A DNA stretch of 64,000 nt from Chondrosia reniformis. Its lineage: Eukaryota; Porifera; Demospongiae; Chondrillida; Chondrillidae. How positions within the stretch are numbered: position 1 is the stretch's first letter; each line of letters opens with the position of its first letter. The stretch covers positions 8,363,001-8,427,000 of the forward strand of contig OX359195.1 in assembly GCA_947172415.1 (NCBI GenBank), in the 5' to 3' direction. The notes under the pieces are model-generated. The model did no database searches. It had not been told where the DNA came from and worked only from the letters and a program-made list of their open reading frames with translations. The position numbers and the translations under genes are program-made. Shown piece after piece: positions 49,501 through 61,830 of this stretch.

Positions 49501-51556
49501 ACCTACTGACACACCCACCTACTGACACACCCACCTACTGACACACCCACCTACTGACACTCCCACCTACTGACACACCCACCTACTGACACACCCACCT
49601 ACTGACACTCCCACCTACTGACACACCCACCTACTGACACACCCACCTACTGACACTCCCACCTACTGACACACCCACCTACTGACACACCCACCTACTG
49701 ACACACCCACCTACTGACACACCCACCTACTGACACACCCACCCACTGACACTCCCACCCACTGACACACCCACCTATTGACACACCCACCTACTGACAC
49801 ACCCACCTACTGACACACCCACCTACTGACACTCCCACCTACTGACACACCCACCTACTGACACTCCTACTGATATATCCTGCAGTTGGAAGGAATGCAG
49901 CGGCCAAAGACAAAGGGGGCGGAGCACTCATACATGGAGATTGAGGAGGATGAGAATGTCGTGGACAAGTATTCTAAAGCAATGGAATCCATCGCGTCCA
50001 TCTTACAACTTGATAAACTGAAACAGGTAACCATCTGAGCTCACGGTGTGTGTGTGTGTGTGTGTTTGTAAGTGAAGTGCTTATGTAGGAGGTTGCACTG
50101 AAGGAAAAGCTTACTCTGTCTGGGAAGACATTGCGCAAGAAGTATCACTTTGCTGGTGGAAACTCTCCCATGAACACAGTCAGTTTGCTGTTTGACAGTT
50201 GATGTGTGTACATCACGTGTGTTCCTCTACCTCCCTATGCAGCCTACCACACTGAGCAGAGCTGGGTCTGGTAACTTGGCCACTTTGCAGGCAAGTCCTC
50301 TGACAGAGGATGAAGAAAATGTTTCTACACAGGATAAAAGTACAGAAAGTTTGGCTTCAGAACGTGGAAACATTAGTGAGCAGATACCCAACGTACCTCC
50401 TGGAGCCATCCTCAGTGAAGCCGAGACTGGAGAGAATCATGAATTATCCAACAATGATCGAGAGCAATTATCAAGTCCAACCATTACTATTACTCCAGTT
50501 GAAGGTGACCAGATAGGAGAGGAACCTGTTCAAGGCGACCAGATAGAAGAGGAACCTGTCCTAGTAGACCAGAATGAGAAGGAACCTGTCCAAAGCGACC
50601 AGATTGTTAAGGAACCTGTCCTATGCGACCAAAATGAGAAGGAACCTGTCCAAAGCGACCAGAGTGAGAAGGACCCTGTCCAAGACGACCAGATTGTTAA
50701 GGAACCTGTCCAAGGCGACCAGATTGTTAAGGAACCTGTCCAAGGCGACCAGATTGTTAAGGAACCTGTCCAAGGCCACCAGATTGTTGAGGACCCTGTC
50801 CAAGGCGACCAGAATAAGAAGGACCCTGTCCAAGGCGACCAGAATGAGAAGGAACCTGTCCAAGGCGACCAGATTGTTAAGGACCCTGTCCAAGGCGACC
50901 AGATTGTTGAGGACCCTGTCCAAGGTGACCAGGATGAGAAGGAAGCTGTCCAAGGAGACCAGAATGAGAAGGAACCTGTCCTAGGAGACCAGAATGAGAA
51001 GGAACCTGTCCAAGGAGACCAGAATGAGAAGGAACCTGTTCAAGGAGACCAGAATGAGAAGGAACCTGCCCAAGGAGACCAGAATGAGAAGGAACCTGTC
51101 CAAGAAGCTTTACTTATTGAAGTTGGTGAGAAGGTTATGGTTGAAGTTGCTAATGGATTTAAAATTGGTACTGTAAAGTTTGTTGGGGAGACCAAGTTTC
51201 AGCCTGGAGTTTGGGTGGGCGTGGCCCTGGAGCGACCCAATGGTAAGTGAGATGTTATTAGTAACAAAGCTGTTTGGTGACCCAACTTTACCTTTCCAGG
51301 TAAACACAATGGAGAGGTACAAGGTATCAAGTACTTTAAGTGTAAGGAGAAGCATGGAGTGTTTGTGCGACCAGAGAAGATTGTACGAGATCCTTCTAAC
51401 AGTCCCAAGCCTTCTCCCAAAATGGACCAGTCGACTAAGCGGGGACCAGTCTCCAGTCGTCCGCGCAGGAGCGCCAGTGGACCTGTTGGTAGACCAAGTA
51501 CAGAAATGAGGAAATTTTCCAGTGGTGTAACAAAAACATTTGGAAAGAAATTTTAA
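43517..51556 (+). CDS. KIF13: Kinesin-3 family motor, KIF13-type
   Basis: Plus-end-directed microtubule motor for vesicle transport, more than 20 exons. The start ATG 43517 encodes [16 protein letters not shown]. Motor domain to about 45200: P-loop [11 protein letters not shown] (44111-44143), switch [12 protein letters not shown] (44661-44693), switch II DLAGSER (44768-44788) and the neck region. An FHA domain follows at about 45845-46100 ([39 protein letters not shown]). Then come coiled coil ([18 protein letters not shown]) and kinesin-3 stalk domains ([30 protein letters not shown]). The end has a 10-residue acidic repeat region (50500-51110) and a CAP-Gly domain ([19 protein letters not shown]). 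FHA plus C-terminal CAP-Gly is the KIF13B architecture. Several introns hold minisatellites. It converges with ELP6. Confidence 0.92.
43886..44012. repeat. 20-bp minisatellite in KIF13 intron
   Basis: Repeats of GTGTGGGTGTGTCATATAAT, about six units, ending beside the acceptor of the exon encoding [13 protein letters not shown]. Confidence 0.92.
45465..45652. repeat. CACTCCCACTCATGC minisatellite in KIF13 intron
   Basis: About twelve 15-bp units with ATG/TTG/ATACA variants. They form a long pyrimidine-rich run ahead of the acceptor CTGTAG at about 45653. Confidence 0.92.
49362..49872. repeat. 16-17 bp minisatellite in KIF13 intron
   Basis: About thirty units of CACACCCACCTACTGA with sporadic CACTCCC and GCTG variants. 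They fill nearly the whole intron before the exon encoding [12 protein letters not shown]. Confidence 0.95.
50503..51110 (+). repeat. 30-bp coding repeat (10-residue units) in KIF13
   Basis: About twenty units encode variants of [10 protein letters not shown] / [10 protein letters not shown]. Unit length is divisible by three, so copy-number change keeps frame. The truncated KIF13 copy at 57075-57265 has only about six units. Confidence 0.95.
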
Positions 51557-51673
51557 TTTGTACAATAATATCAGTTTCACTTGTTTAATAGTTTCATGTT
51601 TAATATATTTATTTAATTTTTCACAAATTCTGTATGTATGGTGAATTGTAAGTGTTCAATCTGATTCGTACAC

Positions 51674-52813
51674 TCAAACAGATCCTTTGGAAAATATAGA
51701 AATGTTTCTTTCATTCAATTTGTAATGTGCAATTTTTTGACTGGAACTTCTATCACAACTTTGTGCAGCTGATTTGGAGAATTTGATCTAAAAAGGATTA
51801 GCCAGTCAATTGGGAACCAACAGTGATTGCGAAACTTACCACACCATGAACGTCTCTACTCACTCCCGTTTCCAACCTTGATGTATGAATATGGAAATGG
51901 GAATGATATAAGAGGTACTTCTCCAATAAGCACTCTTGTTCAGTGTCAGCATGTGTCATGACAACCACAAAACCCTGGGGGGGGGGGCTGGGATAATAAT
52001 AGGTCACGAGGTACAGTGCATGCTCACAAATACTTGATTTTGTGCGATATATTGCTGGCAATAGCTAATGAAATTATCAACTTCTTGAACAGACAACCCT
52101 ACATTCAGTAGAACAGAAATGTCGTCTATGAAAAGTGCAAAATGGCCTCCTCTGTCACTGGCTCCTCTTATGAGGTGAAAGAGTGTGCAGAGTGGATCCA
52201 CCTCTACCTCCTGTCTGAGGGAAATGACACACTCAAGTGACCTGCCCAAGCATTGCAAGAAATTCACTTACTGCTTCAGTGAAAAGTATACGTGATTGTC
52301 AGATTCGGCTCTAGGTGCTCCACTGTCATGAAGACGTGTAAAGGCATCCACAAAGACCAGCTGGCTAGCTGCTCTGCAAGTTGACAAATTTACTCCCTTC
52401 AGGATCAGTAGCAAGAGACGGCAGATTCAGTGGAAGTACAACAACAGAAGCACTCACCAGTTTGGATGAAATTGTATTGTAATACACAAACGATTCATTG
52501 AATGAGACCAGAAGAATTTTCGTTCCTTCTGTATAAGATCAATTTGAATATCAAATACGTACGAAAATTGTGATCGTGCATGTACCTCTAAGTGCCTCGG
52601 ACAAGAAGTGATGAAATAGAAATTTGCCGTTACTCTCCGAATCACTGAGTAAAACCGTTTTGTTCTAAATAACGAGTGACTTCAACATGTATCATGTCGG
52701 CGTGTGATTCGCATGTGGAACTGAGTAAATTTGCTAGCTATTTCTAGGAAACTCACTGAAAACCCACGCGAGACTGATTGGATATTGACAAACGACTTTA
52801 GCTCTTCCAACAT
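51674..52813 (-). CDS. ELP6: Elongator complex protein 6
   Basis: Subunit of the ELP4-5-6 RecA-like ring of Elongator, needed for wobble-uridine modification of tRNA. Seven exons (complement): 52757-52813, 52586-52664, 52458-52528, 52272-52396, 52034-52241, 51840-51974, 51674-51787, all GT-AG with consistent phase. The sequence aligns along its length with animal ELP6: MLEELKSFV, VLLSDSESNGKFLFHHFLSEAL, QLVFVDAFTRL, ALFIDDISVLLNVGLSVQEVDNFISYCQ (Walker-B-like strand), GFVVVMTHAD, SRDVHGV and the closing YKLNERNISIFSKGSV. As in other ELP6 proteins there is no P-loop. It is divergent from the FKBP gene (37 bp between start codons) and converges with KIF13. A fragment occurs at 57831-58112. Confidence 0.87.
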
Positions 52814-52850
52814 GATGCTCTGCCAGTCGTATGCCGTCGAATTGTACAAA
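52814..52850. promoter_or_regulatory. Probable bidirectional promoter ELP6 / FKBP
   Basis: 37 bp lie between the divergent start codons. This interval and the first exons of both genes are exactly what is missing from the second duplication unit, so the truncated copies there lack this promoter. Confidence 0.5.
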
Positions 52851-53805
52851 ATGGCGTACATGCGGTGGTCACCTTTCAGAGTGCTTTTGTTTGTAATTTG
52901 TAGCTCACTTCTGACGAGGTAGGACGCGCACTTTCTCTTTTCGCTAGATCTGACGATTCTCATTGATTTCAGTGAATGTGAAAGCAAGGAGAGCCAGGGA
53001 AAGCTAGAAATTATAACTCGGGTAACTTGTATGGTACACTTGGTAATGCAGTCTCGCACGAATGGTGCGTCTAGTGTCGCGTGTACGTTCTTAATTGTTA
53101 GAACAAACCTTCGTTCTGTCCCAAATCTGCTGAAAAAGGAGATACAGTGGTAGTGCATTACACGGTAAGGCGTCACGTGACTACCACATGACACACTAGG
53201 GAGAGAAGAGTATTCCTGTAGGGGACTTTGGAGACTGGTATAATATTTGACACTTCAAAGAAGGAGGGGCGTGGTCCATTTCCTGTAGAACTTGGAGCAG
53301 GAAAGGTCATTAAAGGTTTGTTCACCTCCTCAAAGTCTCATTGAATTTGTAACTCTTTCCTTTCTTGTACATGAAGGTTGGGATGAAGGTTTGCTAGGGA
53401 TCTGTGAAGGGTGAGTTGAGTGATGTTGTCCAAAGTGTTCTACTGTCGATGTACTTCTCTTCAGGGAAACTCGTAAGCTTGTCATTCCTCCACATCTCGC
53501 TTATGGAGATGCAGGAGTCCCTCCCACTATACCAGGTGAGTCTGTTGCCATGGTGATGTTGTACCCATCCATGCATGTGTGTGTGTGTAGGTGGAGCAAC
53601 TCTTGTCTTTGAAGTGGAGTGTATTAGTGTTGAGAAGAAACCGTCTGCTCTCTTCAGCAGTGGCACTCGGAGGTTCCTTAGCATTTTGGGCATTTTTGTG
53701 GCAATTGTGCTAATTGTGTATGAAGTGTACAAGAAAGCAAAGAAGGAATCTCAAAGAGACAAGAAAGATGTGACAAACAAAAAGAGGAAAGGAAAAAGAC
53801 ATTGA
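52851..53805 (+). CDS. ER FK506-binding peptidyl-prolyl isomerase, FKBP11-like
   Basis: Seven exons: 52851-52918, 52973-53021, 53102-53164, 53222-53315, 53377-53410, 53465-53535, 53591-53805. Signal peptide MAYMRWSPFRVLLFVICSSLL. One FKBP domain: [71 protein letters not shown]. The isomerase aromatic and hydrophobic residues (Y, D, V-I, W) are kept. A transmembrane segment LSILGIFVAIVLIVYEVY is followed by a Lys/Arg-rich cytosolic tail. The single domain with C-terminal membrane anchor matches FKBP11 (FKBP19) better than FKBP2 or FKBP14. It converges with RNGTT 48 bp away. The start at 52851 was preferred over an upstream in-frame ATG because it gives the best signal peptide. Confidence 0.86.
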
Positions 53806-53853
53806 TGAATTGCAAATGACATTTAACAGAATTACAATGGGTTATTATTTGAA

Positions 53854-56585
53854 TTAGTTTGGTCTCTTTGGGGGAGGCATCCGGGGATCCGGTTTGCTAT
53901 CCGCAGGCCTCTTCCTAATAAGGGCACCCTCACTGATTTTAAGAACCATCTCCTTGGTAACCGGCTTTATAATTGACTCACACACACCTAGTTAGAAGGA
54001 GAGGGTGGTCACATGACATGAAAGGGCTAGGGGGTGGTCACATGACATGAAAGGGCTACTCCAAAATACTTTTTGCTGTTTCCACTGTATTTGGAAAACT
54101 TCTGTCTGTTATGACTCTCAAGAATTTCCATTTCTTCTGCTCACTGTCGTAAGTGCATTCAATAATTTTACCATCCAACTCTTTAAGCTCATTATTTACC
54201 TATTGTAATGACACACAACACTGCTAGACACTGTAAATATCAGAACTGTATGGAGGGCGACCTCGATCCTTGAGAAGGGCTGAGGGTACTTGGTAACATA
54301 GAGTTCCCCGACAGTTGTGAGCAGTTGACTGATAAACACAAGAGAATGTCAGCTAAGTGTTGCTTGGTGTACAGTAGAACTCACCCGAACTTCTCTTGCT
54401 TCCTTATTTTGAGTTGAAAGTCAACACTGTTCAGTTCTGGAGGCTTCCATTTAAGGAGCTGATCGCATCTTCCTGGCACGTAGGGCTAAACAGGCAACAC
54501 AAACTAGTACGTACTGAACACCTCCACATCACCACAAACGAACAAACTTGGTGATTGGGGGAGAATATGAGTCCGTCTGATTCGTGAGGAAGCTTTGGAA
54601 TCCAGATATCTAATATCTAGTGCAGAAGGAGAGGAAAGCCTTAACAAGATGGTATGAATCTTGTGAGTGTAAACGAACTGTTTTAACTTCTGAAATGTCC
54701 CAAAATCCTTTTAATCGAATTGAAAAAGGTTCCTTGAGTTTGTCCAATTTATTTTTCATTGCCTAAAGTAAGACAAAATAATTACAGCAAATACTAGTAT
54801 TGTGGTTACCATGACAACAAACAGCTTCTTCCCTGGGACCAATGAGCTCTTCCTCAATACACTTCAGTCTTTCAATGTGACTTTTCTTGCTTATATTTTT
54901 GTCACCCTAGGGGCGGGGGGTAGGAGGGGCAGGGGGTAGGAGGGGCGGGGGGTAGGAGGGGCAGGGGGTAGGAGGGGCGGGGGGTAGGAGGGGCAGGGGG
55001 TAGGAGGGGCAGGGGGTAGGAGGGGCGGGGGGTAGGAGGGGCGGGGAGTAGGAGGGGCGGGGAGTAGGAGGGGCGGGGAGTAGGAGGGGTGGGGAGTAGG
55101 AGGGGCGGGGGGTAGGAGGGGCGGGGAGTAGGAGGGGCAGGGGGTAGGAGGATGTGACCAATGCCGGGGGGACTAATGAGTTACCTCTAACTCCATAATG
55201 TCGTAGATCAGGAAGCGAGGTCGCTTCCCCCCATTAGGGACATTGTCCAGTACCAATTCCTATATATAAGAACCCCAGGTTGCCATGGTTACATTTTTGC
55301 TACATTAGCACATACGTAACTGACTGACCCCATCAACTACTGTCAGAGAAATGTGAGCCTCCAAGTTCCTCCTCTTGGGAAAGACTAGATTGTCCACACG
55401 GAAGACTACGTTGTCCCTGTCCACCATGTACACTTCAGCCGTGCCCTTAATGAGCATGATGTACCTGGTCCCATCTGCCTTCCAACTGACCCTGTACGGC
55501 AGCTGGGTCAGCAGGAAGATGTTCTTCACGTCCAGGGAGACTGGCTGCGAGCCCGGGAACCCAGCACTGTGCACACAGGGGCAGTGAAGTAAGGTTAAAT
55601 GGCAAACATGGCACTCACCTCTCCCAACTGCAGGCCTCCTGACAGCGGCGCTGGACATCTGAGTTTCCCGGTGGAGCCACAACTGAGACATTTGAACTTT
55701 CAATAGCAAACTTAGTTTTATCTACTGCTCGTTCCTTCCTCCTGTGAGGCTTGTGACTCGCTTCTTTAATTAAAGGGTCTCCCTCATCGTCAACTTCGGC
55801 ACTACTCTGATCCAGGTAGTACCATTCTGGCTTGTCTGGAGTGTCCAGACCCTCCCTGTCGCCATCATTGTAGCGTTTAGCCAGCTCTTCCAAGTAGTCG
55901 TTTTTATAGATACCTGGTTGGTGCGCTCTTGCAAACTCCTTTACGGCATACTCGCAACTAAGTATGTACGCAGCGGGAGTAACCGGCGCCTTTCGCAATG
56001 ACGGCACAGATCTAGAACGACTGACCTCCAGTTCTTCTCTTCAATGAGGTACGAAACAATGAGAAATCCCGTCCGATTGAAGCCGTGAGTGCCGTGAACA
56101 CCGACCACTCCCATGGGGTTCTGACGAAGATAACCTTTCACTACAAATATGAACTCCTTCACTTGATTTTCAGTCGGAGGTTCGTTAAATCTGGAGTTTT
56201 ATAAGAATTTGCAAAGTTAAAAGTTAAAAGATAAAATGTAATCACAGTGATTACCCTTCGCATTTCAGTTTGTAGTAGCCGATTCCAGCGTTGAGAACTT
56301 CTCTTTTGTCATAGAAGCGATCAGTCTTAGTCAAGTCGACAAAGAGACCTAGTTTGTGCGGCCCTTCGCGCATGTACGAGAGCAACATGGCCGGTCGAAA
56401 GAGGCTTTCTTCTGGCACTTTGTACTGGCTGCTGAGGGGAGTCTTAAAGGCGAGAAAGCAACCTGAAGACACGCAACACACGCACAGACTTTTAAAATCA
56501 ACCTCCGCTCCGAAGAACGTCGCTTACCGTCTATAAGCTTGCTCTTCCTTGGACAGTGTAACCAGCGAGGCGGTACGTTCATCAT
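53854..56585 (-). CDS. RNGTT: mRNA capping enzyme, copy 1, with mutated triphosphatase active site
   Basis: Bifunctional enzyme: N-terminal RNA 5'-triphosphatase of the Cys-phosphatase fold plus C-terminal GTP:RNA guanylyltransferase; acts on nascent RNA polymerase II transcripts. Start [15 protein letters not shown] at 56585. The phosphatase signature reads [13 protein letters not shown]: the catalytic Cys of HCxxGxxRTG is Gly (codon GGC, 56091-56093). Copy 2 has Cys. The guanylyltransferase part keeps the GMP-attachment motif [25 protein letters not shown] and [18 protein letters not shown], and ends with [18 protein letters not shown]. No other break was seen by eye. An intron carries a G-rich minisatellite (54905-55150). 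The prediction is a guanylyltransferase without triphosphatase activity, if expressed. Confidence 0.93.
54905..55152. repeat. G-rich 16-bp minisatellite in RNGTT copy 1 intron
   Basis: About fifteen units of GGGGTAGGAGGGGCGG. Its G4-prone sequence lies between guanylyltransferase exons. The counterpart in copy 2 (60188-60316) has about eight units. Confidence 0.95.
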
Positions 56586-56599
56586 CGACAATCATCTAC

Positions 56600-56816
56600 A
56601 GTAGCGTAGGAAGATGGTTCAAGTTAGGGGGGCTGAACTTCAAGCACCGATTGTACTATAGGTTAATGCCGTATGCTTGGTGATGTCATTCTAGTGGGAA
56701 ATGTATATGTTCCGCGCTTTCTATGAATCTATAGAATGCACAACGCAATTTAGGAATTCCTACAATGCGTGCCAATCTATAGATAGATAAACTACATAAA
56801 AGACCATCCTCAATTC
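56600..56816. other. Duplication junction filler, unique sequence
   Basis: Not found elsewhere in the window. It lies between the 5' end of RNGTT copy 1 and the reverse-transcriptase fragment; it may be the non-coding end of that retroelement. Confidence 0.4.
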
Positions 56817-56956
56817 TTAAACCAATTTCCTTAAATCTAGAGCTAAGTCATTAATGAATATGTTAAACAATGTTGGTGATAAGGGACACCCTTGTTTGAT
56901 GCCCTGCTCAATATTAAAGTCAGTGAATCCGTAGTGCGCATTCCTGGAATTCAGAC
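56817..56956 (-). mobile_element. Fragment of non-LTR retrotransposon reverse transcriptase
   Basis: Reading the minus strand from about 56956 gives AHYGFTDFNIEQG followed by IKQGCPLSPTLFNIFINDL. The second stretch is the conserved RT motif found in LINE-type elements. A stop follows at 56817-56819. Both ends are truncated; only about 45 residues remain. It sits exactly at the joint between the two duplication units. Confidence 0.85.
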
Positions 56957-57716
56957 CCAACGTACCTCCTGGAGCCATCCTCAGTGAAGCCAAGACTGGA
57001 GAGAATCATGAATTATCCAACAATGATCGAGAGCAATTATCAAGTCCAACCATTAGTAATTTACTATTACTCCAGTTGAAGGCGACCAGATAGAAGAGGA
57101 ACCTGTCCTAGTAGACCAGAATGAGAAGGAACCTGTCCAAGGAGACCAGAATGAGAAAGAACCTGTCCAAGGAGACCAGAATGAGAAGGAACCTGCCCAA
57201 GGAGACCAGAATGAGAAGGAACCTGTTCAAGGAGACCAGAATGAGAAGGAACCTGTCCAAGAAGCATTACTTATTGAAGTTGGTGAGAAGGTTATGGTTG
57301 AAGTTGCTAATGGATTTAAAATTGGTACTGTAAAGTTTGTTGGGGAGACCAAGTTTCAGCCTGGAGTTTGGGTGGGCGTGGCCCTGGAGCGACCCAATGG
57401 TAAGTGAGATGTTATTAGTAACAAAGCTGTTTGGTGACCCAACTTTGCCTTTCCAGGCAAACACAATGGAGAGGTACAAGGTGTCAAGTACTTTAAGTGT
57501 AAGGAGAAGCATGGAGTGTTTGTGCGACCAGAGAAGATTGTGTGAGATCCTTCTAACAGTCCCAAGCCTTCTCCCAAAATGGACCAGTTGACTAAGCGGG
57601 GACCAGTCTCCAGTCGTCCGCGCAGGAGCGCCAGTGGACCTGTTGGTAGACCAAGTACAGAAATGAGGAAATTTTCCAGCGGTGTAACAAAAACATTTGG
57701 AAAGAAATTTTAATTT
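56957..57716 (+). pseudogene. KIF13 3' fragment (truncated, premature stop)
   Basis: Copy of KIF13 from position 50388 onward: start of the acidic-repeat exon, about six 30-bp units, the CAP-Gly exons and the tail. A small insertion (TTAGTAA near 57055) and TGA at 57543-57545 (CGA in the parent, after RPEKIV) break it. No motor domain or promoter. The CGA to TGA change is the kind expected from CpG decay. Confidence 0.92.
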
Positions 57717-57830
57717 GTACAATAATATCAGTTTCACTTGTTTAATAGTTTCATGTTTAATATATTTATTTAATTTTTCACAAATTCTGTATGTATGGTG
57801 AATTGTAAGTGTTCAATCTGATTCGTACAC

Positions 57831-58112
57831 TCAAACAGATCCTTTGGAAAATATGGAAATGTTTCTTTCATTCAATTTGTAATGTGCAATTTTTTGACTG
57901 GAACCTCTATCACAACTTTGTGCAGCTGATTTGGAGAATTTGATCTAAAAAGGATTAGCCAGTCAATTGGGAACCAACAGTGATTGCGAAACTTACCACA
58001 CCATGAACGTCTCTACTCACTCCCGTTTCCAACCTTGATGTATGAATATGGAAATGGGAATGATATAAGAGGTACTTCTCCAATAAGCACTCTTGTTCAG
58101 TGTCAGCATGTG
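57831..58112 (-). pseudogene. ELP6 3' fragment (exons 6-7)
   Basis: Matches the last exon and part of exon 6 of ELP6, including the stop at 57831-57833. The sequence is cut near 58112, where about 1 kb containing ELP6 exons 1-5 and FKBP exon 1 is missing relative to the first unit. Confidence 0.9.
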
Positions 58113-58130
58113 ACAGCACATTGATTTCAG

Positions 58131-58965
58131 TGAATGTGAAAGCAAGCTTAAGAAGAAACAGGGAAAGCTAGAAATTATAACTCAGGTAACTTGTATGGTA
58201 CACTTGGTAATGCAGTCTCGCACGAATGGTGCGTCTAGTGTCGCGTGTACGTTCTTAATTGTTAGAACAAACCTTCGTTCTGTCCCAAATCTGCTGAAAA
58301 AGGAGATACAGTGGTAGTGCATTACACGGTAAGGCGTCACGTGACTACCACATGACACACTAGAGAAGAGTATTCCTGTAGGGGACTTTGGAGACTGGTA
58401 TAATATTTGACACTTCAAAGAAGGAGGGGCGTGGTCCATTTCCTGTAGAACTTGGAGCAGGAAAGGTCATTAAAGGTTTGTTCACCTCCTCAAAGTCTCA
58501 TTGAATTTGTAACTCTTTCCTTTCTTGTACATGAAGGTTGGGATGAAGGTTTGCTAGGGATCTGTGAAGGGTGAGTTGAGTGATGTTGTCCAAAGTGTTC
58601 TACTGTCGATGTACTTCTCTTCAGGGAAACTCGTAAGCTTGTCATTCCTCCACATCTCGCTTATGGAGATGCAGGAGTCCCTCCCACTATACCAGGTGAG
58701 TCTGTTGCCATGGTGATGTTGTACCCATCCATGCATGTGTGTGTGTGTAGGTGGAGCAACTCTTGTCTTTGAAGTGGAGTGTATTAGTGTTGAGAAGAAA
58801 CCGTCTGCTCTCTTCAGCAGTGGCACTCGGAGGTTCCTTAGCATTTTGGGCATTTTTGTGGCAATTGTGCTAATTGTGTATGAAGTGTACAAGAAAGCAA
58901 AGAAGGAATCTCAAAGAGATAAGAAAGATGTGACAAACAAAAAGAGGAAAGGAAAAAGACATTGA
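58131..58965 (+). pseudogene. FKBP11-like copy lacking its first exon
   Basis: Exons 2-7 of the FKBP gene are present with intact splice sites and frame (exon 7 58751-58965 almost identical). The signal-peptide exon and the promoter shared with ELP6 are deleted. Exon 2 has changed (SKLKKKQGKLEIITQ-type sequence). It could be expressed only from a new upstream start, and the product would not enter the ER. Confidence 0.85.
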
Positions 58966-59013
58966 TGAATTGCAAGTGACATTTAACAGAATTACAATGG
59001 GTTATTATTTGAA

Positions 59014-61750
59014 TTAGTTTGGTCTCTTTGGGGGAGGCATCCGAGGATCTGGTTTGCTATCCGCAGGCCTCTTCCTAATAAGGGAACCCTCACTGATTTT
59101 AAGAACCATCTCCTTGGTAACCGGCTTTATAATTGACTCACACACACCTAGTTAGAAGGAGAGGGTGGTCACATGACATGAAAGGGCTAGCGGGTGGTCA
59201 CATGACATGAAAGGGTTAGGGAGGTGGTCACATGACATGTAAGGGTTGGGAGGTGGTCACATGACATGAAAGGAGTAGGGAGGTGGTCACATGACATAAA
59301 AGGGTTAGGGAGGTGGTCACATGACATGAAAGGGCTACTCAAAAATACTTTTTGCTGTTTCCACTGCATTTGGAAAACTTTTGTCTGTTCTGACTCTCAT
59401 GAATTTCCATTTCTTCTGCTCACTGTCGTAAGTGCATTCAATAATTTTACCATCCAACTCTTTAAGCTCCTTATTTACCTATTGTAATGACACACAACAC
59501 TGCTAGACACTGTAAATAACAGAACTGTATGGAAGGTGACCTCGATGCTTGAGAAGGGCTGAGGGTACTTGGTAACATAGAGTTCCCCGACAGTTGTGCT
59601 CAGTTGACTGATAAACACAAGAGAGTGTCAGCTAAGTGATGCTTGGCGTACAGTAGAACTCACCCGATTTTCTCATATTTCCTTATTTTGAGTTGAAAGT
59701 CAACACTGTTCAGTTCTGGAGGCTTCCATTTAAGGAGCTGATCGCATCTTCCTGACACGTAGGGCTAAACAGGCAACACAAACTAGTACGTACTGAACAC
59801 CTCCACATCACCACAAACGAACAAACTTGGTGATTGGGGGAGAATATGAGTCCATCTGATTCGTGAGGAAGCTTTGGAATCCAGCTGTCTAATATCTAGT
59901 GCAGGAGGAGAGGAAAACCTTAACAAGATGGAATGAATCTTGTGAGCGTAAACGAACTGTTTTAACTTCTGAAATGTCCCAAAATCCTTTTAATCGAATT
60001 GAAAAAGGTTCCTTGAGTTTGTCCAATTTATTTTTCATTGCCTAAAGTAAGACAAAACAATTACAGCAAATACTAGTATTGTGGTTACCATGACAACAAA
60101 CAGCTTCTTCCCTGGGACCAATGAGCTCTTCCTCAATACACTTCAGTCTTTCAATGTGACTTTTCTTGCTTATACTTTTGTCACCCTAGGGGCGGGGGGT
60201 AGGAGGGGCAGGGGGTAGTAAGGGCGGGGAGTAGGAGGGGCAGGGGGTAGGAGGGGCGGGAGTAGGAGGGGCGGGGGGTAGGAGGGGCGGGGAGTAGGAG
60301 GGGCGGGGGGTAGGAGGATGTGACCAATGCCGGGGGGACTAATGAGTTACCTCTAACTCCATAATGTCGTAGATCAGGAAGCGAGGTCGCTTCCCCCCAT
60401 TAGGGACATTGTCCAGTACCAATTCCTATATATAAGAAGCCCAGGTTGCCGTGGTTACATTTTTGCTACATTAGCACATACGTAACTGACTGACCCCATC
60501 AACTACTGTCAGAGAAATGTGAGCCTCCAAGTTCCTCCTCTTGGGAAAGACTAGATTGTCCACACGGAAGACTACGTTGTCCCTGTCCACCATGTACACT
60601 TCAGCTGTGCCCTTAATGAGCATGATGTACCTGGTCCCATCTGCCTTCCAACTGACCCTGTACGGCAGCTGGGTCAGCAGGTGGATGTTCTTCACGTCCA
60701 GGGAGACTGGCTGCGAGCCCGGGAACCCAGCACTGTGCACACAGGGGCAGTGAAGTAAGGTTAAATGGCAAACATGGCACTCACCTCTCCCAACTGCAGG
60801 CCTCCTGACAGCGGCGCTGGACATCTGAGTTTCCCGGTGGAGCCACAACTGAGACATTCGAACTTTCAATAGCAAACTTAGTTTTATCTACTGCTCGTTC
60901 CTTCCTCCTGTGAGGCTTGTGACTCGCTTCTTTAATTAAACGGTCTCCCTCATCGTCAACTTCGGCACTACTCTGATCCAGGTAGTACCATTCTGGCTTG
61001 TCTGGAGTGTCCAGACCCTCCCTGTCGCCATCATTGTAGCGTTTAGCCAGCTCTTCCAAGTAGTCGTTTTTATAGATACCTGGTTGGCGCGCTCCTGCAA
61101 ACTCCTTTACTGCATACTCGCAACTAAGTATGTACGCAGCGGGAGTAACCGCGCCTTTCGCAATGATTGCACAGATCTAGAACGACTGACCTCCAGTTCT
61201 TCTCTTCAATGAGGTACGAAACAATGAGAAATCCCGTCCGATTGAAGCCGTGAGTGCAGTGAACACCGACCACTCCCATGGGGTTCTGACGAAGATAACC
61301 TTTCACTACATTTATGAACTCCTTCACTTGATTTTCAGTCGGAGGTTCGTTAAATCTGGAGTTTTATAAGAATTTACAAAGTTAAAAGTTAAATATTAAA
61401 AAGTAATCACAGTTATTACCCTTCGCATTTCAGTTTGTAGTAGCCGATTCCAGCGTTGAGAACTTCTCTTTTGTCATAGAAGCGATCAGTCTTAGTCAAG
61501 TCGACAAAGAGACCTAGTTGATGCGGCCCTTCGCGCATGTACGAGAGCAACATGGCCGGTCGAAAGAGGCTTTCTTCTGGGACGTTGTACTGGCTGCTGA
61601 GGGGAGTCTTAAAGGCGAGAAAGCAACCTGAAGACACGCAACACACGCACAGACTTTTAAAATCAACCTCCGCTCCGAAGAACGTCGCTTACCGTCTATA
61701 AGCTTGCTCTTCCTTGGACAGTGTAACCAGCGAGGCGGTACGTTCATCAT
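59014..61750 (-). CDS. RNGTT: mRNA capping enzyme, copy 2, active-site cysteine intact
   Basis: Second full-length capping-enzyme gene, same exon plan as 53854-56585. The phosphatase loop is [13 protein letters not shown] with catalytic Cys codon TGC (61256-61258). The guanylyltransferase motif WKADGTRY and KWKPP region are intact, and the end [20 protein letters not shown]-type sequence is kept. Scattered amino-acid differences from copy 1 include FINVVKG for FIFVVKG, KNIHLL for KNIFLL and RKYEKIG for RKQEKFG. Start 61750, TAA 59014-59016. The 5' side adjoins DNALI1 without filler, so this copy occupies the ancestral 5' context and is probably the functional capping enzyme. Confidence 0.94.
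59160..59338. repeat. About 27-bp minisatellite in RNGTT copy 2
   Basis: Six to seven units of GGTGGTCACATGACATGAAAG. The same place in copy 1 (54000-54060) has two. Each unit contains the palindromic TCACATGA. Confidence 0.93.
60188..60316. repeat. G-rich 16-bp minisatellite in RNGTT copy 2 intron
   Basis: About eight units of the GGAGGGGCGGGGGGTA type; shorter allele of the 54905-55152 repeat. Confidence 0.93.
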
Positions 61751-61830
61751 CGATAATCATCTACAGTCGGGACTTTCCCTACAATTTCCATTTCCATTTA
61801 TATGATTTAGAAATGGGATTGGCTAAAGTT

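Follow-up and report, generated by a model that had tools for sequence, protein, structure and literature searches.

Tandem duplicates of an mRNA capping enzyme gene in the sponge Chondrosia reniformis: a copy altered in both active sites is probably decaying

Introduction

The metazoan mRNA capping enzyme (RNGTT, or Mce1) is composed of a DSP-type RNA triphosphatase domain, a linker, a nucleotidyltransferase domain and an OB fold, in this order. The phosphatase loop has the motif HCxxxxxR(S/T) (PMC2904801), whose Cys, C126 in the human protein, is the catalytic residue, while the guanylyltransferase is recognized by motif I (KxDG) and motif VI (RxDK).

Both active sites have been mutated in the capping enzyme of Trichomonas: the C126S replacement ended the phosphatase activity and also lowered the guanylyltransferase activity, and the R526A replacement, at an arginine of motif VI, abolished guanylyltransferase activity (PMC2904801). 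In the human enzyme, R530 and K533 are described as important for GTP/mRNA binding and for catalysis, and six positions are named that contact the CTD of RNA polymerase II (PMC8034621). In the related DNA ligases, the Arg and the Lys of RxDK are reported to give the leaving pyrophosphate its orientation (PMC4609770). The capping enzyme is also used in cytoplasmic recapping, which involves a GMP-binding form of the protein and is inhibited by the K294A form (PMC4138027).

A natural precedent for the loss of a phosphatase nucleophile is given by the STYX pseudophosphatases, which have a Gly in place of the Cys and have been described in 419 species (PMC8907265). Among the papers listed in searches of the open-access literature, none dealt with an animal capping enzyme that is inactive or duplicated, or with an RNGTT bearing C126S.

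Decaying tandem duplicates are a common kind of thing. These incipient pseudogenes are typically highly identical to their partner, with a raised dN/dS, a lost upstream flank and lesions at conserved sites in one copy.

We describe here two RNGTT genes in a 64,000-nucleotide stretch of DNA (the window) from the sponge Chondrosia reniformis. Both copies have the domain order of the metazoan enzyme, and copy 2 also has its phosphatase loop and its motifs I and VI. Unlike the metazoan enzyme, copy 1 is without the catalytic Cys and two of the motif VI residues. It shares with STYX the Gly at the catalytic position, but it is young, it comes from one assembly and its second domain is damaged as well. 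The two copies share with degenerating duplicates a high identity, a raised pairwise dN/dS, and a lost upstream flank and lesions at conserved sites in copy 1, which has no stop or frameshift as yet.

Organization of the locus

The two genes belong to two duplication units separated by a short spacer (Table 1).

Table 1. Position of the features of the duplicated capping enzyme locus in the window.
Feature	Position	Strand	Remarks
Duplication unit 1	50386..56602		3' part of CAP-Gly gene, 1-kb single-copy segment, FKBP gene, RNGTT copy 1 (self-BLAST, Pfam CAP_GLY and FKBP_C)
Spacer between the units	56603..56954		352 bp, mosaic of dispersed repeats, in the place of the upstream flank of copy 1
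Duplication unit 2	56955..61767		Truncated CAP-Gly fragment, FKBP gene, RNGTT copy 2 (self-BLAST of the window)
RNGTT copy 1	53854..56585	(-)	13 exons, 583 aa, probably decaying; spliced model open throughout
Copy 1, exons 1-7	56585-56528, 56462-56255, 56190-56026, 55957-55619, 55566-55329, 55259-55185, 54906-54823	(-)	
Copy 1, exons 8-13	54762-54679, 54616-54548, 54485-54385, 54328-54262, 54199-54070, 53987-53854	(-)	
Copy 1, Gly122 codon	56091..56093	(-)	GGC, at the position of the catalytic Cys (human C126)
Copy 1, motif VI	54101..54112	(-)	ITDR: R526I and K529R (human R530 and K533)
RNGTT copy 2	59014..61750	(-)	583 aa in 13 exons; capping enzyme intact
Copy 2, Cys122 codon	61256..61258	(-)	TGC
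Copy 2, motif VI	59380..59391	(-)	RTDK, intact

Upstream of the RNGTT ATG, the units still share about 15-17 bp. Beyond this point copy 1 meets the repeats of the spacer; the upstream flank of copy 2 occurs once in the window, according to self-BLAST. The spacer has 55 matches listed in the genome of the sponge, itself included (the best 40 of 62 candidates were scored), and Pfam detects in it a fragment of RVT_1 with an E value of 2.4e-6 and a score of 27.8 bits, below the family cut-off of 29.6. The repeat fragments in the spacer come from at least three dispersed repeats; for one of these, neighboring copies of opposite orientation are found at other places.

Unit 2 starts inside the CAP-Gly gene. 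Its CAP-Gly fragment (57072-57560) is truncated on the 5' side, and a TGA is found at 57543-57545 where unit 1 reads on, the units differing at 57542-57543. The copies of a 30-bp repeat (50495-51244 and 57042-57401) are far more numerous in the array of unit 1 than in that of unit 2, which is read in a single open frame together with the beginning of the CAP-Gly domain. Unit 1 also contains, between its CAP-Gly and FKBP genes, a segment of 1002 bp (51959-52960), single-copy in the genome, which carries several minus-strand open stretches and is missing from unit 2. With its truncated CAP-Gly gene and without the 1-kb segment, unit 2 looks like the product of complementary decay after the tandem duplication.

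On the FKBP side (53021-53853 versus 58184-59013), the units differ at 2 of 829 aligned positions and by one 4-base indel, whereas parts of RNGTT have diverged by about 4%, in coding and noncoding sequence alike. The far lower divergence of the FKBP side suggests that recent local gene conversion may have taken place there.

Gene models of the two copies

The putative exons were modelled by hand from the reading-frame pieces, the comparison with the human protein and the GT-AG borders. In each copy the coding sequence is 1752 nt long, stop included, and the introns are of the GT-AG type. There are no coding indels between the copies and no internal stop in either; the original prediction that both copies are full-length is thus borne out by 13 exons, 583 residues and an open frame in each. 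The limits of the region that it singled out, 53854 and 61750, are those given by the models, the first at the stop of copy 1 and the second at the copy 2 ATG. It had also proposed that stops or frameshifts in copy 1 would speak against it: they were looked for in the spliced model and none was found.

Indels within the gene are confined to introns, with a single base at 55985 and length changes in introns 6 and 12, which occur in minisatellite-like stretches. The 1-base difference at 55985 had been considered as a frameshift in copy 1, which is rejected because the position lies in intron 3. An intron 8 of 23 nt was set aside for a putative one of 62 nt, which restores the human length; its donor is common to both copies. 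The minisatellite of intron 6 (54909-55155 and 60188-60317) is GC-rich, with a 16-bp period, and is longer in copy 1; related stretches match elsewhere in the genome.

The best PDB match of copy 2 is human RNGTT (E value 1.1e-170). Copy 2 is identical to the human protein at 283 of 573 aligned residues and copy 1 at 277 of 573. All three capping enzyme domains score lower in copy 1 than in copy 2 in Pfam (mRNA_cap_enzyme, 207.4 versus 211.1 bits; mRNA_cap_C, 66.0 versus 79.4; DSPc, 33.0 versus 41.8), and the DSPc score of copy 1 is below the family cut-off of 33.5.

Searches of the genome of the sponge (117,379,552 bases, 15 contigs) by protein, Pfam family and DNA revealed no third capping gene among the matches listed. 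In the searches with exons, which scored their best candidates, all the matches listed (12 of 12 and 2 of 2) lie within the two units. In the DNA search, three of the 17 matches listed are in the two units and the 14 others lie elsewhere, on the intronic minisatellite of the query.

Both active sites are altered in copy 1

In the phosphatase loop, a single base distinguishes the copies: the codon of the catalytic Cys is TGC in copy 2 and GGC in copy 1, exactly at the positions that had been predicted (Table 1). The loop of copy 2, HCTHGFNRT, fits HCxxxxxR(S/T). Copy 1 has Gly122 in place of the Cys of active RNA triphosphatases and retains the other residues of the loop, among them the Arg. 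A second change is found in its phosphatase domain, R156H (human R160), where copy 2 has the human residue. The predicted loss of triphosphatase activity in copy 1 is supported by C122G.

The original prediction also stated that the guanylyltransferase motifs KADGTRY and KWKPP are intact in copy 1. This is correct, as they are identical in both copies and the motif I lysine (K286 in KADGTRY) is present. It made no mention of motif VI, which reads RTDK in copy 2 versus ITDR in copy 1. Copy 2 thus has both motif I (KADGTRY for KxDG) and motif VI (RTDK for RxDK), while copy 1 has ITDR where active mRNA guanylyltransferases have RxDK. Around this motif copy 1 is changed at four positions, M523L, R526I (human R530), K529R (K533) and A534T (A538), and at each of M523, R526, K529 and A534 copy 2 has the residue of human RNGTT in the protein alignment. 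The replacement of Lys by Arg is a mild change; that of Arg by Ile is not. The yeast-type enzyme of PDB entry 4pz6, which we take to be that of fission yeast, reads RFRDDK at motif VI, and the Arg and the Lys are common to it and to the human protein.

From the two sites together, we infer that copy 1 probably has little or no activity in either step of capping. The six CTD-contact positions of the human enzyme do not distinguish the copies: in both, four are identical to human, one has Arg for Lys and R386 is replaced by Glu.

Substitution pattern

The copies differ at 32 codons, with 21 replacement and 11 silent differences. The overall pairwise dN/dS (Nei-Gojobori) is 0.60, with a bootstrap range of 0.31-1.48, the branches of copies 1 and 2 being pooled in this value. 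Single parts rest on few differences and have wide errors: dN/dS is 0.61 in the phosphatase (codons 1-175) and 0.85 in the guanylyltransferase (241-555), 1.39 in the OB fold (456-555), and, with 2 to 8 differences each, 0.27 in the linker (176-240), 0.45 in the nucleotidyltransferase core (241-455) and 0.14 in the C-tail (556-583). It had been proposed that constraint retained in just the C-terminal half would support a new role of copy 1. The values are the reverse (0.85 versus 0.61), and this reading is disfavored because constraint is not concentrated in that half.

When the minisatellite stretches are left out, there are 36 differences in 1752 coding positions and 21 in 664 intron positions. 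The distribution of these 57 differences was compared with models that use assumed dN/dS values. One neutral copy and one copy at dN/dS 0.1 give 35.9 coding differences expected, against 36 seen. Two copies at 0.1 give 24.7 (P=0.002), two copies relaxed to 0.3 give 30.9, which is not rejected (P=0.11), and two neutral copies give 41.3 (P=0.08).

Human-identical sites, where one copy or both have the human residue, number 285 of 583 and take 10 of the 21 replacements. Since this matches random placement (P=0.54), conserved sites are not avoided. If the human residue is taken as ancestral, copy 1 carries the change at 8 of these 10 sites and copy 2 at the other 2 (P=0.11, not significant alone); one of the changes in copy 2, P444S, introduces a Ser which is also found in the alignment of 4pz6. 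The 11 other replacements cannot be polarized. By BLOSUM62, copy 2 is closer to human at 14 sites and copy 1 at 6 (P=0.12). A sponge relative that could serve as outgroup was sought in bacterial and archaeal contigs, where 16 stretches matched a pattern, none of them a relative.

In the core (codons 241-455), no human-identical site is changed in copy 1. Divergence is likewise low in the introns of the middle stretch (54679-55600; 3 of 197), so conversion could explain this as well. The OB fold takes 9 replacements in 100 codons against 12 in 483 elsewhere (P=0.004); selection on this domain was considered and rejected, the adjoining introns being equally diverged (20 of 501 coding positions, 10 of 253 noncoding).

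The probability of finding no stop by chance falls from 0.48 with 15 substitutions to 0.17 with 36, and that of finding no coding indel is about 0.27 or 0.07, given one or two intron indels. At this age, the lack of stops and indels is weak evidence of constraint. Overall, the pattern makes copy 1 look little constrained.

A probable decaying duplicate and the alternatives

The explanation that best fits these data, to which we give a probability of roughly 0.82, is a recent tandem duplication followed by the decay of copy 1, deprived of its flank and damaged in both active sites. A segment of about 5-6 kb would have been duplicated, starting inside the last part of the CAP-Gly gene, including the FKBP gene and ending just upstream of the RNGTT ATG. 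If the flank of copy 2 is taken as the original one, copy 2 would have remained a working capping enzyme, and copy 1 would have been left with the short shared upstream sequence beside repeat debris, probably with weak or no expression. Not being needed, it may have drifted under little or no constraint, close to neutrality; it has lost the phosphatase nucleophile (C122G) and the Arg and the Lys of motif VI (R526I, K529R). Early decay of copy 1 was one of the two outcomes envisaged in the original prediction, and it is the one that the lesions in both active sites and the little constraint support. Copy 1 is most likely an ordinary dying duplicate and not a new kind of enzyme.

There is a small chance that copy 1, although doubly inactive, is kept as a decoy or scaffold which still binds the CTD of RNA polymerase II, in the manner of STYX; a marginally smaller one attaches to the more specific proposal that it is a young inactive pseudoenzyme whose CTD-binding core competes with the working enzyme or scaffolds it, with a STYX-like fate. 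The full-length open frame, the CTD-contact positions that do not differ between the copies, the core free of changes at human-identical sites and the precedent of Gly for Cys in STYX (PMC8907265) are consistent with such a role. However, no constraint is seen beyond that explained by one conserved copy, the upstream flank of copy 1 is lost, the middle region has diverged little in its introns too, and the copies are too young for their retention to be informative.

It is also improbable that the two units are alleles, or a false duplication, assembled in tandem. The divergence of the copies, about 2-3%, is near the heterozygosity, about 1.4-2% as estimated by applying a simple k-mer formula to the published k-mer completeness (PMC12181767). 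But the window contains no N, no other place listed matches the 352-bp join over its whole length and an assembler is unlikely to invent it, and a truncation and the 1-kb single-copy segment set the units apart. Moreover, the assembly was made from HiFi reads with purge_dups and curation; these data are described as 10.31 Gb in 0.80 million reads (PMC12181767), which amounts to about 13 kb per read by arithmetic. The HiFi reads are public as ERR10224860, and RNA-seq reads as ERR10177766. Even in the case of alleles, both active sites would be damaged in one of them.

The other outcome envisaged in the original prediction, a separated guanylyltransferase which lost the phosphatase alone and now caps 5'-diphosphate RNA (recapping), would agree with the intact KADGTRY and KWKPP, the open frame and the core dN/dS of 0.45, but it is not supported and is very improbable, because motif VI is also changed at the equivalents of both human R530 and K533, and the guanylyltransferase half shows no excess of constraint, its dN/dS not being below that of the phosphatase half; in addition, in the Trichomonas enzyme C126S on its own reduced the guanylyltransferase activity (PMC2904801).

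Significance

The loss of the phosphatase nucleophile in this animal capping enzyme is not evidence for a split capping pathway, because copy 1 has also lost part of the guanylyltransferase site. The locus rather gives an early snapshot of the duplicate of an essential gene which is probably decaying next to an intact copy. Expression and retention of copy 1, if they were real, would make it a natural capping pseudoenzyme of an unusual kind.
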